From Streptomyces sp. CB09001 (GTDB taxonomy: Bacteria > Actinomycetota > Actinomycetes > Streptomycetales > Streptomycetaceae): a stretch of DNA of 64,000 nt. Within the stretch, counting starts at the first letter, position 1. Each line of letters begins with the position of its first letter. Position numbers and translations under genes: made by a program. Below are positions 20,370 to 36,933 of the stretch, one piece after another. The stretch is taken from the NCBI RefSeq assembly GCF_003369795.1, contig NZ_CP026730.1:7431001-7495000 (forward strand), given 5' to 3'. Below the pieces are notes generated by a model. It worked only from the letters and a program-made list of their open reading frames with translations, did not search any database and had not been told where the DNA came from.

Positions 20370-20975
20370 ATGCGCGAGATCATCGTTTGCACGTTCCTGA
20401 CGCTGGACGGCGTCATGCAGGCGCCGGGCGGCCCGGACGAGGACGCCGAGAGCGGCTTCGAGCACGGCGGCTGGCAGAAACCGGTGGACGACGACGAGGT
20501 CGGCACGGCCATCGCCGGGTGGTACGAGGACTCCGACGCCATGCTGCTCGGCCGCAAGACCTACGACATCTTCGCGTCGTACTGGCCCACCGCCGACCCC
20601 GACAACCCGTTCACCCATCGGATGAACAGCATGCACAAGTACGTGGCGTCCCGGACCCTGACGTCCCTCGAATGGCAGAACTCGACACTGCTGGAGGGCG
20701 ACACCGTCGACGCCGTACGCAGGCTGAAGGCGTCCGACGGCGGAAACCTCAACGTCGTCGGCAGCGGCGACCTCGCCCAGACCCTCATGCGCCACGGCCT
20801 CGTCGACGAGTACCGGCTGACCATCCACCCGGTGATCATCGGGACCGGCAAGCGGCTGTTCGCCGACGGAGCGATTCCCACCGCGCTGGAGCCGGTCGGC
20901 GTCTCGACGACGAAGGGCGGCACCGTCGTAGGCGTCTACCGGCCGAACGGTGCGCCCAGCTACGACAGTTACTAG
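20370..20975 (+). CDS. Dihydrofolate reductase-like (RibD C-terminal) protein
   Basis: 201 residues of the RibD_C/YyaP branch of the DHFR fold: VCTFLTLDGVMQAPGG, then AMLLGRKTYDIFASYWP, NVVGSGDLAQTLM and YRLTIHPVIIGTGKRLF. Such stand-alone proteins bind NADPH; true substrates are usually unknown. The ATG has a GGAAGGGAG site. Follows the K+ channel by 73 bp. Confidence 0.85.
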   Translation: MREIIVCTFLTLDGVMQAPGGPDEDAESGFEHGGWQKPVDDDEVGTAIAGWYEDSDAMLLGRKTYDIFASYWPTADPDNPFTHRMNSMHKYVASRTLTSLEWQNSTLLEGDTVDAVRRLKASDGGNLNVVGSGDLAQTLMRHGLVDEYRLTIHPVIIGTGKRLFADGAIPTALEPVGVSTTKGGTVVGVYRPNGAPSYDSY

Positions 20976-25204: not shown

Positions 25205-25948
25205 TCAGCGCGACGCCGTGAGGTAGCGCAGCAGCAGGGTGTCGTCCTCGGCGAGTGCGGTGGCCAGACGCAGGCCGGTGGGTGGGACGGGTGGCCCGGT
25301 GGCGATCCGGCCGGCCGGGCCCGCGGTCAGCAGCGGGGAGACGGTCAGACGGAGTTCGTCGACCAGCCCGGCGGCGGTCAGTGCCCCGAACAGGCGGGGT
25401 CCGCCTTCGCAGTCGATGCGCCGCAGCCCCCGCCGGGTGAGTGCCGAGACCGCGGCGGCCAGGTCGACGGTGTCCTCGCCCGCGTAGACGACCTCCGCCC
25501 CGGCCTCCTGCCAGGCCCGACGTGTGGGCTCGGGTACCGAAGCGCAGGTGAGGACGATGGTCGGGACGCGCGCCCGGGTGATGACGGGGGCGTCGGCGGA
25601 CAGTGTTCCGCCGGTGCTCACGACGGCCGTCGGCGGGACGTCGGCCAGGCCGTGGCGGCGCCGGCGGTCGAGGGTCTGCCGGTCGGGGTGGACGCCGCGG
25701 AAGCCCTCGACCACGGCCGTGGTGGCGCCGATCAGCAGGACGTCGGCGAGGTCGCTGCCGAGTTGCAGCACCTTGCGGTCGGGCGGGGTCGACAGGGGCC
25801 TGGCCAGGCCGCCGACTTCCACGGCCCCGTCGGCGCTGGCGACGAAGTTTACGGCGAGCCAGCGCTCACGGTCCGGGTAGGTGTAGAGGCGTTCCAGTTC
25901 GTCGTCGTCGATGGGCCGGGCCTGTTCGGCGGGCCAGATCAGGTGCAT
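25205..25948 (-). CDS. RibD-type pyrimidine reductase-like protein
   Basis: 247 residues of the RibD C-terminal/DHFR fold. WLAVNFVASADGAVEVGG is the N-terminal strand and substrate loop. Next come DVLLIGATTAVVEGF, IDCEGGPRLFGALTAAGLVD and LRLTVSPLL. In riboflavin synthesis this fold reduces a pyrimidine ribosyl intermediate with NADPH. Here there is no deaminase domain and no riboflavin gene nearby. The ATG shares its A with the stop of the FolP2-like gene (TGATG), so translation is coupled. Last gene of the pterin cluster. Confidence 0.85.
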   Translation of the reverse strand: MHLIWPAEQARPIDDDELERLYTYPDRERWLAVNFVASADGAVEVGGLARPLSTPPDRKVLQLGSDLADVLLIGATTAVVEGFRGVHPDRQTLDRRRRHGLADVPPTAVVSTGGTLSADAPVITRARVPTIVLTCASVPEPTRRAWQEAGAEVVYAGEDTVDLAAAVSALTRRGLRRIDCEGGPRLFGALTAAGLVDELRLTVSPLLTAGPAGRIATGPPVPPTGLRLATALAEDDTLLLRYLTASR

Positions 25949-26823
25949 CAGGCGATCCAGGTACTCGTACGGGCGGGAGGACGGGTGCCGTTGATGCCCG
26001 CGGCCATCTCGACGACGTGCCGGGTGGGCAGGACCTCGTGGGCCCGGAAGACTGCGGCGCCGTCCCTGGCGGCGATGGCTGTCGCCGCCAGGGTGCCGGC
26101 CAGCCGGTCCCGCAGTTCCACATCCAGCATCTCGCCCACGAAGGTCTTGTTGGACAGTGCCATCAGGACCGGCCACCCGGTCTCGGTGAACTCGCGGAGG
26201 CTGCGGAGCAGGAGGAGGTGGTCGGCGGTGTTCTTGCCGTAGCCGGTGGCGTCGATGAGGATGCCGCCGCGGGGCACGCCGGCGGCTTCGGCCCGCTCCG
26301 CCAGCTCGACGACGGAGGTGCGGACGGCGGCCACCACGTCGGGGTAGTCGGGCCGGAAGGGCTCGGCGCGGGGGGTGCGGCCGCCGGTGTGCGTGCACAC
26401 GTAGCCGGCACCGTGGTCGGCGGCCACCTCGATCAGTTTCGGGTCGGCGGCGGCCCAGGCGTCGTTGAGGATGTCCGCTCCGGCCCGGCAGGCGGCGTCG
26501 CCGACCTCGTGGCGCCAGGTGTCGATACTGATCAGCAGATCGGGGTAGCGGTCGCGGGCCCATTCCACCAGCGGAACGACACGGGCGACTTCTTCGGTGG
26601 TCGTGACGTCCTCCCCCGGACTGGCCGCGACTCCGCCGAGGTCGATCATGTCGGCGCCCTCGGTGACGGCCCGGGCGATGGCGGACCGGGCCGCCTCGGC
26701 GGCGAAGGTGGCACCCCGGTCGTAGAACGAGTCCGGTGTGCGATTGACGATCGCCATCACCAGGGGACGGTCGCCGACGACGCGGCGGCCGCGGAACTCC
26801 AGGTCGACTGCTGTGGTGGGCAT
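25948..26823 (-). CDS. folP2: Dihydropteroate synthase paralogue (FolP2-like)
   Basis: 291 residues of the pterin-binding TIM-barrel fold: VMAIVNRTPDSFYDRG, then MIDLGGVAASPGEDV, LISIDTW, ILNDAW and the C-terminal AHEVLPTRHVVEM. Several spots differ from true FolP: VNRTPDSF for NVTPDSF, GGVAASPG for GGESTRPG, and SNKTFVGE where FolP has an S-R-K motif. These match the mycobacterial FolP2 branch, which is not a functional sulfonamide-target enzyme. It may bind a pterin without making dihydropteroate. The ATG at 26823 has AGGAG; ATG 26865 has none. Confidence 0.82.
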   Translation of the reverse strand: MPTTAVDLEFRGRRVVGDRPLVMAIVNRTPDSFYDRGATFAAEAARSAIARAVTEGADMIDLGGVAASPGEDVTTTEEVARVVPLVEWARDRYPDLLISIDTWRHEVGDAACRAGADILNDAWAAADPKLIEVAADHGAGYVCTHTGGRTPRAEPFRPDYPDVVAAVRTSVVELAERAEAAGVPRGGILIDATGYGKNTADHLLLLRSLREFTETGWPVLMALSNKTFVGEMLDVELRDRLAGTLAATAIAARDGAAVFRAHEVLPTRHVVEMAAGINGTRPPARTSTWIA

Positions 26824-26861
26824 GGTGTGTGCGGCTCCTGTCGTCGGCCGGTCGAGGGCGC

Positions 26862-28109
26862 TCATCGTTGCGGTGGTGCGTCGCCGGTGGCGAGCGCGTC
26901 GAGGTCTGCCTCGGTGAGCTGCCGGGCGGACACCCGTGCCCGGGTGCCGACCAGGGCGGTGAGCGCGTCGCCGTGGTCCCAGGAGTTGACGTTGAGGGCG
27001 GCGGTGATCCGCCCGTCGCGCAGCCAGAAGGCGAGGAACTCGCGGGTGGCCGGGTCGCCGCGCAGGACCAGTTCGTCGTGGACGGGGTCGGCGAGGCCGC
27101 GGTACTCGCAGCCGAGGTCGTACTGGTCGGAGAAGAAGTACGGGTCGGCGCTGTAGGCGTCGTGGCCGCCGAGGAGGCTGCCCGCCACGTGGGCGCCCTG
27201 CTCCTTGGCGTTGGACCAGTGCTCGACGCGTACGCGTCCCTCGTGGCGCGGGTGGTCGTGGGCGGCGATGTCGCCGGCCGCGTAGACGTCGGGGGCCGAG
27301 GTGCGCAGTGCGGCGTCGGTGGCGACCGCGCCCGCCGCGAGGTCCAGCCCCGCGGCTGCGGCGAGTTCGGTGCGGGGCAGGGCGCCGACTCCGACGACCA
27401 CCACGTCGGCGGGCAGTTCGCTGCCGTCGTCCAGGAGCACCGTCCGGCCGTCGCGGCGGACCGCTGTGCCGGTCGCCCCGACGCCCAGGCGCAGGGTGAC
27501 GCCGTGGTCGGCGTGCAGGTCGCGGAAGACCGCTCCGACCTGGTCGCCGAGGACGTGCCGCAGTGGCAACGGCACGGGGTCGACCATGGTCACCCGTGCG
27601 CCGTGGGCGCGGGCCGCGGAAGCGACCTCGCAGCCGATCCATCCGGCGCCGACGATCACCACACGGGCTCCGTCGGTCAGCTTCTCGCGCAGGGCCAGGG
27701 CGTCGTCGAGGGTGCGCAGCGTGTGCACCCCCGGACCCTCGAAACCGGGCGGGACGCGAGGGCGGGAACCGGTCGCCAGCAGCAGCCGGTCGTATCCGTG
27801 GGTCGCACCGTCGGCGTCGACGATCTCGTGGTCGGACGGTTTCAGAGCGGCGACGACGGTGTCACGGCGCAGGGTGATGCCGTGGTCCCCGTAGTACCCG
27901 GCCTCGCGCACCCAGTCCGGCTCGTCCCGCTCGCCCAGCAGGACCGCCTTGGACAGTGGGGGGAGTTCGTACGGGTCGTGGGCCTGCTCGGCGAACAGGG
28001 TGAGGTCTCCGTCGAACCCCTGCTCGCGCAGGGCGGCGGCGGCCGACGCGCCGGCCAGGCCGGCGCCCACGATCAGGATCCGCCGGGGCGTGCGCTGCGG
28101 TGTGCTCAT
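26862..28109 (-). CDS. FAD/NAD(P) ferredoxin reductase-like oxidoreductase
   Basis: 415 residues. ILIVGAGLAGASAAAALREQ binds FAD, VVIVGAGWIGCEVASAA binds NAD(P), and DVYAAGDIA closes the FAD site. The C-terminus (CEYRGLA, then WLRDGRITAALNVNSWDHG) matches reductases of oxygenase and P450 systems. It lies between folE and folP2 in one unit, so it probably supplies electrons for a redox step on the cluster product or a missing partner. Confidence 0.87.
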   Translation of the reverse strand: MSTPQRTPRRILIVGAGLAGASAAAALREQGFDGDLTLFAEQAHDPYELPPLSKAVLLGERDEPDWVREAGYYGDHGITLRRDTVVAALKPSDHEIVDADGATHGYDRLLLATGSRPRVPPGFEGPGVHTLRTLDDALALREKLTDGARVVIVGAGWIGCEVASAARAHGARVTMVDPVPLPLRHVLGDQVGAVFRDLHADHGVTLRLGVGATGTAVRRDGRTVLLDDGSELPADVVVVGVGALPRTELAAAAGLDLAAGAVATDAALRTSAPDVYAAGDIAAHDHPRHEGRVRVEHWSNAKEQGAHVAGSLLGGHDAYSADPYFFSDQYDLGCEYRGLADPVHDELVLRGDPATREFLAFWLRDGRITAALNVNSWDHGDALTALVGTRARVSARQLTEADLDALATGDAPPQR

Positions 28110-28143
28110 GACTGCCTCCCAATGGGGCTGGTGCGTTGCTGTG

Positions 28144-28758
28144 CTACCGCTGTACGCCGGTGAGGGCGAGGAACTCCTGCCGGGACGCCGCGTCGTCGCG
28201 CAGCGTTCCGAGCAGGGTGGAGGTGACGGTTCTCGATCCGGTGGCCCGCACTCCGCGCAGGGTCATGCAGGTGTGTTCGGCTTCGACGACGACCCCGACT
28301 CCCCGGGGCTGCAACTGTTCGGCGAGGCGGTCCACGATCTGTTTGGTCAGCCGTTCCTGCACCTGGGGACGGCAGGCGTAGTGCTCCACCACCCGGGCCA
28401 GCTTCGACAGCCCGAGGATCCGTGCGCCGGGCAGGTAGCCGACGTGTGCCACCCCAACGAAGGGCAGCATGTGGTGCTGGCAGACCGAACGCAGGGGGAT
28501 GTCGCGGGCCAGGACGAGTTCGTCGTAGCCCTCGTCGTTGGGGAACGTGGTCATCCGGAAGGGGCGCGCGTTGAGCAGTTCGGCGTAGCCGCGGGCCATC
28601 CGGCCGGGCGTGTCCCGCGTGCCCTCGCTGTCCACCACCACCCCGAGCGCCTCCAGGAACTCCCGGGCGGCCCGCTCGGCGGCCTCCAGGTCGGGCCCGG
28701 TGACCTCGTCGGGCCCGGTGAGATCCTCGATCACCTGCAGTGCGGCTGTGGCAGTCAT
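28144..28758 (-). CDS. folE: GTP cyclohydrolase I
   Basis: 204 residues, family length. Makes 7,8-dihydroneopterin triphosphate from GTP, the first step to folate and pterins. Zinc and active-site motif SVCQHHMLPFVGVAHVGYLP, then ILGLSKLARVVEHYACRPQVQ (in pieces) and CMTLRGVRATGSRTVTS. The usual folate folE of Streptomyces sits beside ftsH/folP; this copy is in an unusual cluster, so likely a second, specialised copy. First gene of the minus-strand unit, divergent from a SufR-like regulator. Confidence 0.9.
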   Translation of the reverse strand: MTATAALQVIEDLTGPDEVTGPDLEAAERAAREFLEALGVVVDSEGTRDTPGRMARGYAELLNARPFRMTTFPNDEGYDELVLARDIPLRSVCQHHMLPFVGVAHVGYLPGARILGLSKLARVVEHYACRPQVQERLTKQIVDRLAEQLQPRGVGVVVEAEHTCMTLRGVRATGSRTVTSTLLGTLRDDAASRQEFLALTGVQR

Positions 28759-28867
28759 ATCCACGGACCCTCCTGTGCCATGTGCACGGCCCTCTGTGTA
28801 TCGACAAGTTCTGTTGTTTTTACAGGCTGGCCACCTCGCCGAAGGTTTGTCAAATCTCATTGGTGTT

Positions 28868-28880
28868 ACATTGGGAATGT
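28868..28880. promoter_or_regulatory. Inverted repeat and probable leaderless start of the SufR-like gene
   Basis: ACATT-GGG-AATGT perfect inverted repeat that reaches into the GTG start at 28879. A -10-like TACATT (28867-28872) lies 7 nt before the GTG and no ribosome-binding site is present, so the mRNA probably starts at the GTG itself. A repressor bound here would block its own gene. Confidence 0.5.
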
Positions 28881-29586
28881 GGGTACGAACGAGGACCGTG
28901 ACAGGGACGCCATCAGCGAGCTGAGCAGCCTGGACGATCCGGTGCGGCGTCGGCTGTACGACTACGTGCGGACCTGCGACGAAGCCGTCAGCCGGGAGGA
29001 CGCCGCGAAGGCGGCGGGGATCAGCCGCACGCTGGCGGCCTATCACCTGGACAAGCTGGCCGAGGCGGGCCTGCTGACCGTTGGCTACGCGCGGGCGGCC
29101 GGGCGCGGTGGCCCGGGAGCGGGCCGCCCCGCCAAGCGCTACACGCGAACGGACCAGGAGCTGTCGGTCAGCGTGCCGCCCCGCGACTACGGTCTGCTGG
29201 CCGGGGTGCTGGCCGAGGCCGTCGCCGCGGACGGCTCCGGGGCGGTGCGGGAGGCCGTGGCCGCCGCCGCGCACGCGGCGGGCAGGTCGGCCGGCGGCGA
29301 GGACCTGACTTCGGCGCTGCGTGGCTGCGGCTACGAGCCCGCGACCACCGCCGAGGGAAGCATCGACCTGCGCAACTGCCCCTTCCACCGGCTCGCTCGC
29401 GAGCACACGGAACTGGTGTGCTGGCTGAACCTGCACCTGGTACGGGGCGTGCTCGAAGCCGGCGGACAACAGCCCGGCCGTGCGGTGCTCGCACCCCGCC
29501 CCGGCCGCTGCTGCGTGGTCGTCGACCCGCCCGAGCAGGAGTCCGAAGCCGCCGCGGCACGACAACCGCACCGGGACGCTCGGTAG
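28879..29586 (+). CDS. SufR-like Fe-S transcriptional regulator (first copy)
   Basis: 235 residues. N-terminal winged helix-turn-helix of the ArsR/MarR-like type (ELSSLDDPVRRRLYDYVRTC, then AAKAAGISRTLAAYHLDKLA), ending in a GRPAKRYTRTDQELSVSVPP wing. C-terminal Cys motif NCPFHRLAREHTELVCWLNL, that is C-x13-C, with further Cys (RCC) near the end. This is the layout of SufR/Rv1460-type Fe-S sensors. It is divergent from the folE cluster and probably controls it. Confidence 0.8.
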   Translation: MGTNEDRDRDAISELSSLDDPVRRRLYDYVRTCDEAVSREDAAKAAGISRTLAAYHLDKLAEAGLLTVGYARAAGRGGPGAGRPAKRYTRTDQELSVSVPPRDYGLLAGVLAEAVAADGSGAVREAVAAAAHAAGRSAGGEDLTSALRGCGYEPATTAEGSIDLRNCPFHRLAREHTELVCWLNLHLVRGVLEAGGQQPGRAVLAPRPGRCCVVVDPPEQESEAAAARQPHRDAR

Positions 29587-29820: not shown

Positions 29821-30519
29821 ATGGCACCCGCTGCAGACGTGTACATCCAGGCGACCGACACCGACCCGGACATCCGGGCCCAGGCCGTCATCGAGGAAGC
29901 CCACCGGAAGGTCCTGGAACGGCTGAGCGCGCTCACCGGGCCCGGAGCCGCCGCGGAGTCCGCCGCCGCGGTGGCCGGACAGGTGCGCGTCCTCGGGGCG
30001 GCTACCGACCGGACGCTGTACGCCGCCGCCTCCGGCGCTGCCGGGACGCGGCTCCTGGTCCGGGCGCTCCGCGCGGCGGCCGACGCGATCGGCCGGCACG
30101 CCGACTCCCTGACCGCCGCGACGGACGACGGCGAACGCTCCGGCACGGCCCGCGTTCTCGAAGCGATGCTCACCGTTCACCTCGGCATCGAGCGTGCGGT
30201 GCTGCTGCCCGCTCTGGCGGCCCTGCCCGGAGTGGACCTGTCCGCCCTCGCCGGCGACTTCGCCACCGTCCTGGCGGGCGGCCGACTGGAAGATCCGGCG
30301 GTCGTCGATGTGCGCGAGATCCCGCACGGCCAGCGTCACCCGCGCATCTTCACCCGCTTCGCCCGTCTGGCGGCCGAAGAGAGCTTCGTCCTGGTCAACA
30401 ACCACGACCCCAAGCCGCTGCGCCGCGAGTTCGAGGCCACCCACCCAGGCCGCTTCACCTGGGAGTACGTCGAGTCCGGGCCCGAGCGGTGGCAGGTGCG
30501 CATCACCCGGGTGGCATAG
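29821..30519 (+). CDS. Hemerythrin-like/DUF2249 two-domain protein
   Basis: 232 residues. The N-terminal helical domain (about 1-155) resembles hemerythrin-like metal proteins, with scattered His/Glu (IGRHADSLT, VHLGIERAVLLPALA), but a full HHE set is not evident. The C-terminal DUF2249 domain (about 160-232) begins VVDVREIPHGQRHPRIFTRF and ends FTWEYVESGPERWQVRI. DUF2249 proteins often neighbour nitric-oxide and denitrification functions. It lies between two SufR-like regulators, which suggests an NO or redox stress link. Confidence 0.75.
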   Translation: MAPAADVYIQATDTDPDIRAQAVIEEAHRKVLERLSALTGPGAAAESAAAVAGQVRVLGAATDRTLYAAASGAAGTRLLVRALRAAADAIGRHADSLTAATDDGERSGTARVLEAMLTVHLGIERAVLLPALAALPGVDLSALAGDFATVLAGGRLEDPAVVDVREIPHGQRHPRIFTRFARLAAEESFVLVNNHDPKPLRREFEATHPGRFTWEYVESGPERWQVRITRVA

Positions 30520-30537
30520 ACGGCGGGTTTTTCCTCG

Positions 30538-30564
30538 TTTCTACGATGAGTGCCGGGTAAAATC
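30538..30564. promoter_or_regulatory. Shared promoter motif before the second SufR-like gene
   Basis: TTTCTACGATGAGTGC followed by CGGGTAAAAT. The TAAAAT box (30558-30563) lies 7 nt before the ATG at 30571, and there is no ribosome-binding site, which predicts a leaderless transcript. See the similar string at 29740-29765. Confidence 0.5.
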
Positions 30565-30570
30565 CACGAA

Positions 30571-31281
30571 ATGAGCGAACGGACGCTGCACGATCCGCCG
30601 GGCCCTCCCGCCGTGGGGGAGAGCCGCGCCCAGGTACTCGACATACTGCGCGCCACACGCGACGCGGTCGGTGTACGGGAGATCGCCGAGCGCACGGGAC
30701 TGCACTCCAACACCGCGCGCTTCCACCTCGACACCCTGGTCAAGGAGGGGTTCGCCGAGCGCACCACCGAGGGAAGCGGCCGCCCCGGCAGACCCCGGGT
30801 CGTCTACCGCTCCGTGGCCTCCTCCGCGGAACCGACCGGTCCCCGCAGCTATCAGCTGCTCGCCCGGATGCTCACCGGCCTCATCACCGAGGCCCTGTCC
30901 CAACCTGCGCAGGCCGCCGTCGGCGCCGGGGAGGCGTGGGGCCGCTACCTCGTCGACACCCCCTCGCCCGCCCGGCGCATCGACGCCGAGGAGGCGGTCC
31001 GGCGGCTGACCCAGGTGCTCACGGACGTCGGCTTCGCCCCCGGCCCCGTCGAACACCGTCCGGACCCGGTCGTCCCGCTGCGTCACTGCCCGTTCCGGGA
31101 GGTCGCCGAAGAACACCGCGACACGGTGTGCTCCCTGCATCTGGGCCTCATGCGTGGCGCCCTGAAGGAAGTGCGCGCCCCGCTCGGCGTCGACCGGCTC
31201 GACCCCTTCGTCGAGCCGTCACTGTGCCTGGCCCATCTCGCACCCGCGGACGAACACCGGGCGGCGGACCGCGCCGCCTGA
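30571..31281 (+). CDS. SufR-like Fe-S transcriptional regulator (second copy)
   Basis: 236 residues. Helix-turn-helix VLDILRATRDAVGVREIAER, then TGLHSNTARFHLDTLVKEGF and the basic wing GRPGRPRVVYRS. The Cys motif HCPFREVAEEHRDTVCSLHL again gives C-x13-C, with a third Cys in EPSLCLAHLA. Same architecture as the regulator at 28879 with moderate similarity, so they look like paralogues with related sensing. Ends 127 bp before the SulP stop. Confidence 0.8.
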   Translation: MSERTLHDPPGPPAVGESRAQVLDILRATRDAVGVREIAERTGLHSNTARFHLDTLVKEGFAERTTEGSGRPGRPRVVYRSVASSAEPTGPRSYQLLARMLTGLITEALSQPAQAAVGAGEAWGRYLVDTPSPARRIDAEEAVRRLTQVLTDVGFAPGPVEHRPDPVVPLRHCPFREVAEEHRDTVCSLHLGLMRGALKEVRAPLGVDRLDPFVEPSLCLAHLAPADEHRAADRAA

Positions 31282-33289: not shown

Positions 33290-34321
33290 TCAGGCCAGCG
33301 CGTTCACCGCGGCCGAGAACACGCGGGGCAGACGAGCGGCGGCGGGCATGATGCGGGGAGCGAGCGCGGGCTGGAGGCGGGCCCGCAGCAGCAGTTCGGT
33401 CAGCAGCCGGTGCCGGCGGGTCGCTCTGCGCCAGTCGGTCTCGTAATGGCCGGGCGTGCCCCGGCGCAGGTTGGCGACCAGGGCCTCGGCGCCGACGAGG
33501 GCGAGGGCGACGCCCTCACCGGTCAGGGCATCGACGTAGCCGGCGGCGTCGCCGACGAACAGGATCCTGCCGTGGGCCCGGGTGCGGGCCCGCTGCCGCA
33601 GGGGTCCGGCGCCCCGCACCGAGGTGACGGCCCGGTCCGGCGACAGGCGGGCCGCCAGAGTGGGAAAGCCCTCCAGCTGGGTGGTGAAGGAGGCGCGCCG
33701 GGTGGTCAGCACGGCGATGCCGACGAGCCGGGGGCCGATCGGGGTGACGTACGCCTCCGCGTCGCTGCCCCAGTGCACTTCGACGTACGGCGACCAGGGC
33801 GCCACCGCGTAGTGCCGGCGCAGCCCGTAGCGGGGTGCGCCGCGGGTTTCCACCTCCAGACCGAGCGAACGGCGCACACGTGAGTGCAAGCCGTCCGCCG
33901 CGACCAGCCACCGGGAGCGCAGCCCCGTCCCGGGCACGCTCACGCCCGCGTGGTCCTGCCGCACCTCTCCCACGCGCAGCGGCAGCACGGGCACGCCGGC
34001 CGCCAGCACGGCGCGGTGCAGCACGCCGTGCAGGTCGGTGCGGCGGACGCCCATGCCGGGGCCGTGGCGGAAGGCGGCCTGGACCCGGCGAGCGCCCTGG
34101 ACGTACCGGATGCCGCTGACGGGGACGCCGGGGACCTCCAGGCCGAGCGCGGCGAGCGAGCGGACCGCGCCCGGCATCAGCCCCTCGCCGCACGCCTTGT
34201 CGACCGGCGCCGGGCGCGGCTCGACGACGACCGTGTCCAGACCGGCGCGCGCCGCGTGCAGGGCGGTGGCGAGACCGGCGGGCCCGCCCCCGACGATCAC
34301 CAGGTCGTGGCGGGCACTCAC
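33290..34321 (-). CDS. FAD oxidoreductase (geranylgeranyl reductase-like)
   Basis: 343 residues. FAD motif VIVGGGPAGLATALHAARAG, then VDKACGEGLMPGAVRSL, which marks the geranylgeranyl-reductase/PHBH-like branch. It continues with WLVAADGLHSRVRRS and ILFVGDAAGYVDALTGEGVAL. The gene overlaps the methyltransferase by 4 bp (GTGA). Next to a type III PKS and a UbiA homologue it could either reduce a prenyl chain or hydroxylate an aromatic ring. Confidence 0.87.
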   Translation of the reverse strand: MSARHDLVIVGGGPAGLATALHAARAGLDTVVVEPRPAPVDKACGEGLMPGAVRSLAALGLEVPGVPVSGIRYVQGARRVQAAFRHGPGMGVRRTDLHGVLHRAVLAAGVPVLPLRVGEVRQDHAGVSVPGTGLRSRWLVAADGLHSRVRRSLGLEVETRGAPRYGLRRHYAVAPWSPYVEVHWGSDAEAYVTPIGPRLVGIAVLTTRRASFTTQLEGFPTLAARLSPDRAVTSVRGAGPLRQRARTRAHGRILFVGDAAGYVDALTGEGVALALVGAEALVANLRRGTPGHYETDWRRATRRHRLLTELLLRARLQPALAPRIMPAAARLPRVFSAAVNALA

Positions 34322-34833
34322 GCGGGCGCCGCCTGGGCGAGGGCCGTGTTCTCACAGCGCAGGCGGACGGTGAGCAGCATCGCGTTGGCCGCGGTGAAGG
34401 CGGCCGCGGTCAGCCACGCGGAATGCACCAGGGGCAGGGCCGCCACCTCCACCACCACCGCGACGTAGTTGGGGTGCCGCAGGAAGCGGTACGGTCCGGC
34501 ACCGACCGGCCGCGCTCCCGGAACGACGATCACCCGGGTGTTCCAGAAGGGCCCGAGCGTCGCGATGCACCACCAGCGCACGGCCTGCGCCAGGAGCGCG
34601 AGGGCCAGCATGGGCCACCCAAGGGCGGGCAGGAACGGGCGGTCGGCCAGCAGGGGTTCGAGCAGACAGCACGCGAGCAGCCCGGTGTGCAGGGCGACCA
34701 TCACGGGGTAGTGGCCACGGCCGTGCTCCACTCCGGCGCGGGCGAGCGTCCACGCCGCGTTGCGGCGGGCGACGACGAGTTCGGCCACGCGTTCGGCGGC
34801 GACGGCGAGGACGAGAAGCGTGTACCACGGCAT
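34318..34833 (-). CDS. ICMT-type membrane methyltransferase
   Basis: 171 residues, about four membrane helices. The C-terminal motif GAGPYRFLRHPNYVAVVVEV, with the RHPNY sequence, defines the isoprenylcysteine carboxyl methyltransferase family. In PKS clusters such enzymes O-methylate a phenol or pyrone. It follows the type III PKS by 9 bp and overlaps the FAD gene, so it is a tailoring enzyme of the same product. Confidence 0.9.
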   Translation of the reverse strand: MPWYTLLVLAVAAERVAELVVARRNAAWTLARAGVEHGRGHYPVMVALHTGLLACCLLEPLLADRPFLPALGWPMLALALLAQAVRWWCIATLGPFWNTRVIVVPGARPVGAGPYRFLRHPNYVAVVVEVAALPLVHSAWLTAAAFTAANAMLLTVRLRCENTALAQAAPA

Positions 34834-34842
34834 GAGAGCACC

Positions 34843-36036
34843 TCACCAGCGCAGCAGGACGAGTTCGGAGCAGAACCCCGGGCCCATCGCCAGGAGCAGT
34901 CCCCAGGTGCCGGACTCCGGTGTACGTCGGGCCCGGATGCCCTCCAGGATGTGCAGCACGGACACGGACGACATGTTCCCCACCGCGGCGAGGGAGCGCC
35001 GTGAGGCGTCCAGGGCGTCCTCGGACAGGCCGAGGGTCTCGCTCACCGCCGACAGGATCCGAGGGCCTCCGGGGTGGCAGATCCAGGTTCCGATGTCGTC
35101 CACGGTCAGCTCGTGCTCGGCCAGGAACGCGCGCAGCTGCCGGCCGAAGTGGCCCCGGACGATGTCCGGGACACCGGCGTCGATCACGACGCGGAAGCCG
35201 TCGGCGCCGATCTCCCATCCGAGGAGCTGCTCGGTACCCGGGTACAGGTGACTGCGCGTGGCGACCACGCGGGGACCGGCGGAGGGTGCGACCGTTGCGC
35301 TGCTGCTGCTGCTGCTGCTGCCGCCGCCGTCGGTGTTGTCGCCGCGGGCGACGAGTGCGGCGGCGCCGTCGCCGAAGAGCGCCCCGGCCACGAGGTTGGC
35401 ACGCGAGCCGTCACCGCGCTGGAGCGTCAGCGAGCACAGCTCCACGGTGAGCAGCACGGCGGTGTCGTCGGGGTGCCCGCGGAGGTGGTCGTGCACCCGG
35501 GCGAGACCGGCGGCGCCCGCGACGCAGCCGAGCCCGAACAGCGGAAGCCGCTTGACGTCGGGTCGCAGCCCCATGCGCCCGGCCAGCCGGGCGTCGAGCG
35601 ACGGAGCGGCCACGCCCGTGATCGAGGCGAACACCAGCAGGTCGACGTCGGCCGGTGCCAGCCCCGCCTCCCGCAGCGCGCCCGAGAGGGCCTCCTCGCC
35701 CAGGGCGAGACCCGCCTCGATCCACGCGTCGTTGCTCTGCCCGAAGTCACCGAGCCCGGCGTACTGCTCGATCGGCAGGGCGAGGTGACGCGTACGCACC
35801 CCCGCGGACGCGTGCACGCGGTGCAGCAGGGCGCGGTCCGCCCCGGGGGACAGGCACAGGTCGCCGATGGGCCCGGTGAGCTCGTGCTGGGCGTACCGGT
35901 GCGGGGGCAGCGCGCAGCGCACGGCGGCGATACGGGGACCCGCCTCCCACGGCGGCGTCGGGCGCCGCGCGGGGGAAGGGGGAGGCGACGGGGAGGGAGC
36001 ATGGTCGACGATCACGGGGACACGCATGTCGTCCAT
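34843..36036 (-). CDS. Type III polyketide synthase (chalcone synthase-like)
   Basis: 397 residues. Catalytic Cys in LFGLGCVAGAAGL, His in WICHPGGPRIL, Asn in AVGNMSSVSVL; the usual KAS III-like core lies between. Makes pyrones, resorcinols or naphthalenes by repeated malonyl-CoA extension. The ATG at 36036 follows GAGGAAGG; ATG 36027 is a weaker choice. An unusual Gly3-Ser7 stretch (about residues 237-246) comes from a trinucleotide repeat in a surface loop. Divergent from a UbiA gene only 36 bp away. Confidence 0.92.
   Translation of the reverse strand: MDDMRVPVIVDHAPSPSPPPSPARRPTPPWEAGPRIAAVRCALPPHRYAQHELTGPIGDLCLSPGADRALLHRVHASAGVRTRHLALPIEQYAGLGDFGQSNDAWIEAGLALGEEALSGALREAGLAPADVDLLVFASITGVAAPSLDARLAGRMGLRPDVKRLPLFGLGCVAGAAGLARVHDHLRGHPDDTAVLLTVELCSLTLQRGDGSRANLVAGALFGDGAAALVARGDNTDGGGSSSSSSSATVAPSAGPRVVATRSHLYPGTEQLLGWEIGADGFRVVIDAGVPDIVRGHFGRQLRAFLAEHELTVDDIGTWICHPGGPRILSAVSETLGLSEDALDASRRSLAAVGNMSSVSVLHILEGIRARRTPESGTWGLLLAMGPGFCSELVLLRW
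35299..35328. repeat. Trinucleotide repeat (GCT)7(GCC)3 in the PKS gene
   Basis: Seven GCT then three GCC on the plus strand, read as AGC x7 and GGC x3 (Ser7, Gly3) in the PKS. In-frame length change would alter only a loop. Confidence 0.85.
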
Positions 36037-36072
36037 GCCTTCCTCGGCCGCCGGTCCCACTACCGTGCGTAC

Positions 36073-36933
36073 GTGTCACTCCACCCGTCTGGGGTTCTCC
36101 CGCGCCCGTCGAGCAGAGTCGTGGCGCTGCTGCGGGCCTGCCATCCGGAACCGACGATCGCCGTCACCGTCTTCGTGTCGGTCCTGGCGGTCGGAGCCGG
36201 CCGCGGGCCGGCCGGGTCGGCGGCCGTGGCCCTCGCCGTACTCGCCGGCCAGCTCTCGATCGGTTGGTGCAACGACGCGGTCGACGCACGGCGCGACACG
36301 GCCTGCCGACGCGGTGACAAACCGGTGGGCACCGGGGAGCTTCCGCGTGCCGCTGCCGCCGCCGCGGCGGGCACGGCCCTGGTCCTGTGCGTACCCCTGT
36401 CCCTGGTCTGCGGGCTCGCCGCGGGAGCGGCCCACCTCGTGGGGGTGGCCGCCGGCTGGGCGTACAACCTGCGGCTGAAGCGGACGGTCCTCTCGCCGCT
36501 GCCGTACGCCGTGGGCTTCGCCTCCCTGCCGGCCTTCGTCGCCCTCGGTCCGCCCCTGTCGGCCTGGCCCGCCTGGTGGGCGATGACCGCGGGAGCCCTG
36601 CTGGGCGTGGGGGCCCACCTGGCGAATGTGCTTCCGGACATCGAGGACGACCTCGCCACGGGGGTGCGCGGGCTGCCCCAGCGGCTGCACCGCTCGGCGT
36701 GCCGCCGGCTGGCGCCGGTCGTGATGTCGGCCGCCGTGGGAGTGCTCGTCGTGGGACCGCCCGGCGCGGCCGGAGTCATGGACCGGGTGCTGACGGGGGC
36801 GGCGGTGGTCGCCGCCGTGGCGGGCACGGCCGTGCGGTCGGGAGCCCGCAGCCGGTGGCCGTTCCGGGCGGCCATCGTGGTGGCCGGCATCGCGGTGACG
36901 CAACTGCTGCTGCACGCTCCCGACATGAGCTGA
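36073..36933 (+). CDS. UbiA-family prenyltransferase
   Basis: 286 residues, about eight membrane helices. Aspartate motifs WCNDAVDARRDTACRRGDKP (first) and LPDIEDDLATG (second) bind prenyl diphosphate-Mg2+. It would attach a prenyl chain to an aromatic acceptor. The GTG at 36073 lies 36 bp from the divergent PKS start, so promoters must overlap and both genes are probably controlled together. The combination suggests a prenylated polyketide. Confidence 0.88.
   Translation: MSLHPSGVLPRPSSRVVALLRACHPEPTIAVTVFVSVLAVGAGRGPAGSAAVALAVLAGQLSIGWCNDAVDARRDTACRRGDKPVGTGELPRAAAAAAAGTALVLCVPLSLVCGLAAGAAHLVGVAAGWAYNLRLKRTVLSPLPYAVGFASLPAFVALGPPLSAWPAWWAMTAGALLGVGAHLANVLPDIEDDLATGVRGLPQRLHRSACRRLAPVVMSAAVGVLVVGPPGAAGVMDRVLTGAAVVAAVAGTAVRSGARSRWPFRAAIVVAGIAVTQLLLHAPDMS

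Follow-up and report, generated by a model that had tools for sequence, protein, structure and literature searches.

Why should a streptomycete carry a second GTP cyclohydrolase I (FolE) beside a protein of the dihydropteroate synthase (DHPS) type and two reductases, under a regulator of their own? The question is raised by a 64,000-nucleotide stretch of Streptomyces sp. CB09001 (NZ_CP026730.1, positions 7,431,001 to 7,495,000; G000:C1:7431001-7495000 of a single-contig 7.79 Mb genome), hereafter the window, in which a first-pass annotation had proposed a dedicated pterin route. The five-gene unit is confirmed at 25205-29586: a divergent regulator together with genes for FolE, a flavin adenine dinucleotide (FAD)-type reductase, a FolP2-class pterin-binding protein and a RibD-type reductase, which we call RibD2. 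Our conclusion, drawn from phylogeny and gene neighbourhoods, is that the FolP2-class protein and RibD2 are an inherited pair which forms the core of this cassette, and that FolE and the FAD reductase are optional.

The evidence for the pair comes from the genome_contigs collection, which its own description puts at 84,980 species, scanned with an alignment of four FolP-linked RibD proteins as the query. Of the 153 stretches that this matched, 128 code for a relative; the analysis continued with the best 80, so that counts out of 80 below refer to the closest relatives. A tree of 93 RibD rows (the trees omit L076, whose genome is also that of L112) contains a FolP-linked clade of 49 rows (support 100/96). 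The adjacent clade, of 35 rows, is without FolP and is found mostly beside a ZapE-like ATPase, which is also the position of this genome's Rv2671-type gene. The linked clade accounts for 47 of the 80 loci, where RibD has an intact FolP beside it in 34 cases (with the order reversed in one), a degenerate FolP in 11 and none in two; at the remaining 33 loci no FolP was found in the stretch examined. The neighbours of L151 and L170, which have no RibD gene call, were judged by tblastn only, and since tblastn at 1e-8 overlooked four degenerate FolPs (L117, L123, L127 and L131) that gene calling alone revealed, very degenerate FolPs elsewhere may have been missed.

The FolP and RibD frames of these pairs usually overlap. 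In the FolP tree the cassette FolPs group with the paired FolPs of Pseudonocardiaceae (99/98), and the unpaired FolP2 rows are the sister of this group. The FolP-RibD pair of four Actinomycetospora and of G216 lies inside the native folP2 neighbourhood, so that the native FolP2 itself has a RibD neighbour there. Counting FolP2-class matches of at least 53% identity per genome, with weaker DHPS-like matches ignored and some of the genomes being drafts, the paired FolP is the only such match in 22 of 31 intact-pair genomes, and a separate FolP2 is present in the other nine (the metagenome assemblies L103, L105 and L108 were left out of the 34). The paired FolP can therefore probably carry the FolP2 role. 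The families themselves are known. Within the open-licence PubMed Central (PMC) literature searched, neither the combination nor the FolP2-RibD2 link was found: no paper turned up that joins Rv1207 with Rv2671, or FolP2 with a pyrimidine reductase, and the passages on FolP2 returned by a query with GTP cyclohydrolase and Streptomyces were without such a link.

What kind of FolP is this? Domains were assigned with Pfam and NCBIfam, that of the cassette FolP as Pterin_bind/DHPS. The best match of the cassette FolP in the PDB is Rv1207 (2vp8, E 7e-99), and it is 37% identical to the genome's own FolP1. In an alignment of 94 FolP2-class rows (8 from cassettes, 28 paired, 29 from the family of the window and 29 others), residues N27, D35, D101, N120, D191, K226, R260 and H262, which we take to be those of the pterin pocket and the phosphate site, are kept in every row, including all eight from cassettes; D31 is Asn in three paired rows. 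P283 of the C-terminal tail is likewise present in 94/94. Loop 2 is where the class departs from DHPS. The Thr-Arg of the STRPG motif, seen in the genome's own FolP1 and in the aligned Klebsiella and Xanthomonas DHPS, presumably serves the handling of para-aminobenzoic acid (pABA) and pyrophosphate. Instead, all 94 rows have A67, followed by Ser or Gly at 68 (among the cassette rows, Ala in 8/8, then Ser in seven and Gly in one). At the sequence level only, with Ala-Ser in place of Thr-Arg, this FolP is not an ordinary DHPS by motif, and the first-pass proposal is not refuted on this count. A plain DHPS paralogue is weakened by the same change, although the family score allows it.

Like the cassette FolP, Rv1207 has lost the loop-2 Thr-Arg, keeps the pocket residues and ends in an R-x-P tail. 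The cassette FolP differs from this class in lying away from dapE, LOG and tagA, in overlapping RibD2, in its company of FolE, FAD reductase and regulator, and in the residues after Asp191, which read (A/G)-T-G-Y-G-K rather than the P-(G/T/A)-D-F-G-K of the unpaired FolP2 rows. With FolP1 and the Sul enzymes it shares the DHPS fold and a score above the TIGR01496 cut-off, but it is without their loop-2 Thr-Arg and scores far below the cut-offs for Sul1-Sul4. Separate FolP2 proteins of several Pseudonocardiaceae (L196-L201 and L203) have NRTRDSF in loop 1, not NRTPDSF. Published passages on the class report that M. leprae folP2 fails to complement an E. coli folP mutant (PMC1971073), that M. 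tuberculosis FolP2 is predicted to be defective and that folP2 deletion in mycobacteria raises sensitivity to sulfamethoxazole (PMC7809127); as far as these passages go, they suggest that FolP2 is not a normal DHPS.

The cassette comes on top of an ordinary folate gene set. At a different place in the genome, folP1 and another folE (the latter at G000:C1:3134562) lie in one neighbourhood with genes read as folB and folK, which bears out the claim that the FolE of the window is a second copy. The two FolE proteins are 52% identical, and C93, H96 and C164, presumably the Cys, His and Cys zinc ligands of GTP cyclohydrolase I, are invariant in eight rows that include the other copy. The neighbourhood of a native folP2 reads dapE-LOG-folP2-tagA and is free of RibD_C genes; this position (with gpgS in some genomes) is thus occupied here by a separate copy and not by the cassette FolP. 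There is also an Rv2671-type reductase (L010/L177) adjoining a ZapE-like ATPase. The names folB, folK, dapE, LOG, tagA and ZapE are presumed from sequence. The cassette therefore brings the number of FolE proteins to two and that of FolP-type proteins to three, and adds one more RibD_C protein to the usual complement. No FolA-type dihydrofolate reductase (DHFR) was found in this genome by a search that, as a control, was positive in 9 of 14 known genomes. Of 121 genomes sampled from the family to which CB09001 belongs, 120 gave a FolP2-class match; the remaining genome is 76% complete and its best match is 44% identical. In the drafts of S. montanisoli and S. sp. NRRL F-5126 (G491 and G492), the cassette copy is the sole FolP2-class match found, as if the cassette had replaced the native folP2.

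RibD2 has Rv2671 as its best PDB match (4xrb, E 7e-43). Its N34, D57 and E181 are invariant in all 27 aligned homologues, paired and unpaired, and correspond to N44, D67 and E193 of Rv2671 in the numbering of the PDB chain. In the passages available, Rv2671 is described as a DHFR (PMC12855090), and a simulation study has its N32, D55 and E181 contacting an antifolate (PMC10530724), where we infer an offset of 12 from the chain numbering. Pterin binding by RibD2 is thus plausible from residue conservation. RibD2 and Rv2671 have in common a single RibD_C domain and the Asn, Asp and Glu; they are distinguished by clade, RibD2 falling in the separate one that is linked to FolP, whereas the Rv2671-type gene sits by the ZapE-like ATPase, and this genome has both. 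A bifunctional RibD of riboflavin synthesis was considered and rejected, as Pfam finds RibD_C only and no N-terminal deaminase domain.

A variant of the pair occurs in 11 Amycolatopsis, in which the FolP beside RibD is 187-212 residues long. The frame is open in 11/11, yet the NRTPDSFYD loop, loop 2, the GKN stretch and the SNK lysine are missing and the C-terminal tail is kept (the active-site count used nine of the 11, as L117 gave no match and L127 was cut to 66 residues). Pterin_bind of Pfam is weak in these proteins, falling below the cut-off in three of four tested and giving no match in the fourth. A structural model has the DHPS barrel, with a confidence (pLDDT) of 88.7 and Rv1207 as its best PDB match; the model alignment combined the 11 degenerate FolPs with 10 intact ones, which favours the FolP fold, and pLDDT falls below 50 over the final 10 residues, which belong to the tail. 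The median ratio of nonsynonymous to synonymous rates (omega, or dN/dS) is 0.40 for the degenerate FolPs and 0.22 for the adjoining RibDs (55 pairs each), and 0.20 for eight intact Amycolatopsis FolPs (28 pairs); these are pairwise NG86 values, rough in high-GC DNA and without tree correction. Along the degenerate FolP the ratio runs 0.61 (the first 28 codon columns, where both rates are low), 0.49, 0.41, 0.20 and 0.23 (the last 27), so that its minimum of 0.20-0.23 falls in the last quarter (54 of 219 codon columns). A dead pseudogene was rejected, given open frames in 11/11 and omega below 1, yet 0.40 is twice the value of the intact FolPs.

All 11 of these genomes have a separate intact FolP2-class gene elsewhere, which keeps the eight pocket residues in 11/11 and lacks the conserved tail in 11/11. 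P283 is present in 12/12 controls, whose tails read RPP (8), KPP (1) or HPP (3). The check covered 23 genomes, not chosen at random: the 11 with a degenerate FolP, eight without a linked RibD, and four of the nine that have a separate FolP2 besides an intact pair. In two of the 11 tail-less proteins the chain runs on for some ten residues of unrelated sequence. In three native FolP2 matches that ran across a stop codon, the stop is where the protein ends. With the pocket kept in one gene and the tail in the other, pocket and tail are thus divided between two genes in these 11 Amycolatopsis. DHPS is a dimeric enzyme. The simplest reading of the split suggests a mixed dimer, in which the tail would do its job near RibD.

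How far does the whole unit travel? Besides the window, the full five-gene unit is present in 5 of the 80 loci, all Streptomyces (S. sp. MH60, S. hyderabadensis, S. montanisoli, S. sp. NRRL F-5126 and S. tendae), which answers in the affirmative the question of conserved co-occurrence that the first-pass annotation had left to be settled. Gene order, orientation and a 27-base block in the regulator-FolE gap are the same across the six full units, including that of S. montanisoli, which has diverged to 74-82% protein identity. Kitasatospora aureofaciens has the unit without the FAD gene, and Nocardiopsis trehalosi, within the stretch examined, has the regulator, FolP and RibD only. With FolE missing in the latter and the FAD gene in both, a fixed four-step pathway is therefore unlikely, and the constant part is FolP-RibD. 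The FAD gene product matches putidaredoxin and ferredoxin reductases in the PDB. Tight coupling of the genes had also been claimed; it holds for FolP and RibD2, where the FolP stop and the RibD2 start have one base in common, but FolE and the FAD gene are separated by 34 bases and the FAD gene and FolP by 38.

Flanking genes vary among several of the genomes that bear the unit, which therefore seems to move as a block and is apparently mobile. It is also rare: among the 121 genomes of the window's family, a cassette-type FolP is found in CB09001 only; the next-best match, at 60%, is itself part of a FolP-RibD pair. In the plasmid search the two best of the matches listed are FolP2 proteins at 61-63%; the annotated one, from Tsukamurella (L077), lies in a dapE-folP-gpgS neighbourhood, and the other is a Nocardia record without annotation. 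A tRNA gene at the cassette ends was looked for, but the window has none. Base composition across 22-33 kb, where G+C runs from 0.68 to 0.75 with dips to 0.68 at 23 kb and 28-29 kb, gives no clear cassette border, and skew tracks gene strand.

Regulation of the unit is probably local. The 27-base block is identical in 7/7 Streptomycetaceae units and recognisable in Nocardiopsis, and it is the probable operator/promoter of the divergent pair. It is matched once in the window and once in the whole genome (as a degenerate pattern with three mismatches allowed; the reversed control gave none), from which we take the regulator to be probably a local one; a genome-wide regulon was rejected on the same count. 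The regulator had been called SufR-like, which is borne out in architecture and not by statistical similarity. Its only family match at E 0.001 in Pfam and NCBIfam is HTH_20, no PDB relative was found at E 0.1, and TIGR02702, the SufR model, gave no match at E 5 for three cassette regulators. A protein beside sufB/D, which we read as the genome's SufR, shares the GRPAK motif and the architecture with the cassette regulator but has no significant BLASTP match to it, and a protein search for similar regulators found one other, 31% identical and in the same window, and missed the one beside sufB/D, so that distant regulators escape it.

Five cysteines, C150, C167, C181, C211 and C212, are invariant in 8/8 cassette copies. 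Along with SufR of cyanobacteria and S. avermitilis and with Rv1460, the cassette regulator has an N-terminal winged helix, GRPAK and CP-type C-terminal cysteines; it differs in not being at a suf operon and in a spacing of C167-x13-C181-x29-C211, which resembles that of the protein beside sufB/D and is near, though not equal, to C203-x12-C216-x27-C244 in Rv1460, where these residues are required for function according to the passage available (PMC6034842). The palindrome CAAC-N6-GTTG, given for SufR promoters in a published passage (PMC8593673), is not a conserved element of the intergenic alignment when read by eye. By analogy of cysteine spacing and general architecture, the regulator may perhaps sense iron-sulphur (Fe-S) status. 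Coordinates of the unit are collected in the table.

Table. Features of the FolP2-RibD2 cassette, in window coordinates.
Feature	Position	Strand	Remarks
RibD-type reductase (RibD2)	25205..25948	-	Single RibD_C domain (PF01872); Rv2671-like
FolP2-class pterin-binding protein	25948..26823	-	PF00809; alternative start 26865
FAD/NAD(P)H oxidoreductase, ferredoxin/putidaredoxin-reductase type	26862..28109	-	PF07992 and PF14759 (Pyr_redox_2 and Reductase_C); optional member
FolE, GTP cyclohydrolase I, second copy	28144..28758	-	PF01227 (GTP_cyclohydroI)
27-base block, probable operator/promoter of the divergent pair	28846..28872		From intergenic alignment; just 5' of the regulator start
Divergent winged-helix regulator	28879..29586	+	HTH_20 (PF12840); five invariant C-terminal cysteines

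Several neighbouring genes deserve mention. The first-pass annotation saw no other folate or riboflavin gene nearby, which is correct but for a generic RibD_C protein at 20370-20975, 4 kb from the cassette. Beside the cassette, at 29824-31281, are a DUF2249 protein with a weak hemerythrin match and then a second regulator of similar architecture (at 30550), the 31%-identical one mentioned above, with cysteines at 180, 194 and 226 and a TIGR02702 match of E 0.047, below the cut-off. Further on, 33290-36933 holds genes named from sequence as a flavoprotein reductase, a type III polyketide synthase-like and a prenyltransferase-like protein. This flank, of polyketide/prenyltransferase type, is common to S. 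tendae (L098, 530-4152), where it directly adjoins the cassette, without the DUF2249, regulator and SulP-like genes. In L075 (9761-10738), L076 (9067-10122), L103 and L108, a methyltransferase-like protein (domain checked in L076) follows the FolP-RibD pair, hinting at a further modification step.

The reading that we put first, though we would stop short of calling it probable, is of a mobile, self-regulated FolP2-RibD2 cassette that acts on a reduced pterin and does not serve ordinary folate synthesis. The extra FolE would raise the supply of dihydropterin, which FolP2 would bind in its conserved pocket without a DHPS-type condensation with pABA, because the loop-2 Thr-Arg is missing. RibD2, as a relative of the DHFR analogue Rv2671, would reduce the dihydropterin to the tetrahydro form with reduced nicotinamide adenine dinucleotide phosphate (NADPH), and the flavin reductase may be an optional supplier or recycler of electrons. 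FolP2 would probably be a dimer with its C-terminal tail as a docking or gating part, and the regulator, perhaps an Fe-S protein, would keep the unit repressed for as long as its cluster or cysteines are undisturbed. A bolder version, which we hold to be doubtful, makes FolP2 one half of a two-protein pterin-processing enzyme with an Rv2671-like partner. Pocket and tail of the dimer could then sit on different subunits, so that a barrel-only, tail-bearing pseudo-DHPS complements the tail-less FolP2 in the 11 Amycolatopsis, and the Streptomyces cassette would be a portable, precursor-making form giving an undescribed reduced pterin.

The unit might instead be a folate backup conferring antifolate tolerance, in which a block of the housekeeping enzymes would be made good by FolE together with a DHFR analogue and a FolP insensitive to sulfonamides, so that folate flux is restored. 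We regard this as doubtful, but several points speak for it: the gene set spans the entry, DHPS-like and DHFR-like steps, the FolP passes the NCBIfam DHPS cut-off, a FolA-type DHFR was not found by our search of the genome, and the passages on folP2 deletion (PMC7809127) and on Rv2671 as a DHFR (PMC12855090) point the same way. However, FolB, FolK and FolC are absent from the unit, the loop-2 Thr-Arg is lost, the paired FolPs of 11 Amycolatopsis are without the pocket residues, and M. leprae folP2, in the passage cited above, did not complement (PMC1971073). The Amycolatopsis proteins are also what speaks for FolP being mainly a non-catalytic structural or regulatory partner of RibD2, whether as a pterin-loaded scaffold or as an allosteric subunit: the degenerate frame stays open in 11/11 and overlaps that of RibD2, omega is 0.40 and drops to 0.20-0.23 in the last quarter, and the predicted barrel still finds Rv1207. 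We think this rather unlikely, given that none of the eight pocket residues is lost in the 36 intact paired rows (8 from cassettes and 28 others) and that an intact FolP2-class gene elsewhere in all 11 degenerate genomes means that catalysis still seems to be needed.

It is improbable that FolE, the flavin reductase and the regulator merely hitch-hike with FolP-RibD as a chance collection with no common pathway. Copies without FolE or the FAD gene and the differing flanks would be expected of such a collection, but not the constant order, orientation and 27-base block of six full units, the diverged S. montanisoli included, nor a block that occurs once in the genome. Least probable is that the unit opens a 7-deazapurine (pyrrolopyrimidine) or riboflavin-type pathway. 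FolE does open pyrrolopyrimidine pathways in actinomycetes and RibD_C is a riboflavin domain, but none of the five genes is of QueD/QueE type (the search for these covered the five genes and not the rest of the genome), RibD2 has no deaminase domain, and we know of no role for FolP in either route.

Several points weigh against a reduced-pterin cassette built on FolP2 and RibD2. The activities of its proteins and a contact between FolP and RibD are predictions. At 250 bits the FolP clears the cut-off of 162.6 set for TIGR01496, the DHPS equivalog, and annotation pipelines would therefore call it a DHPS; N34, D57 and E181 of RibD2 are kept in unpaired relatives too and so do not single out a substrate. 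The native folP2 of this genome has no RibD beside it, and pairing is therefore not required for FolP2. Full cassettes are few (the window and five loci), with FolE and the FAD gene dispensable, and of the 13 among 394 genomes of the class with a RibD match at E 1e-45, only three, CB09001 included, have one of the linked clade. Finally, the degenerate FolPs are one clade of one genus and may go back to one event.

FolP2 is almost universal in the family to which the window belongs, and its loss alters the sulfonamide sensitivity of mycobacteria in the passage available (PMC7809127). The reductase encoded beside it, the FolE that accompanies it in some copies and the natural division of pocket and tail between two proteins are concrete clues to its role that can be tested.

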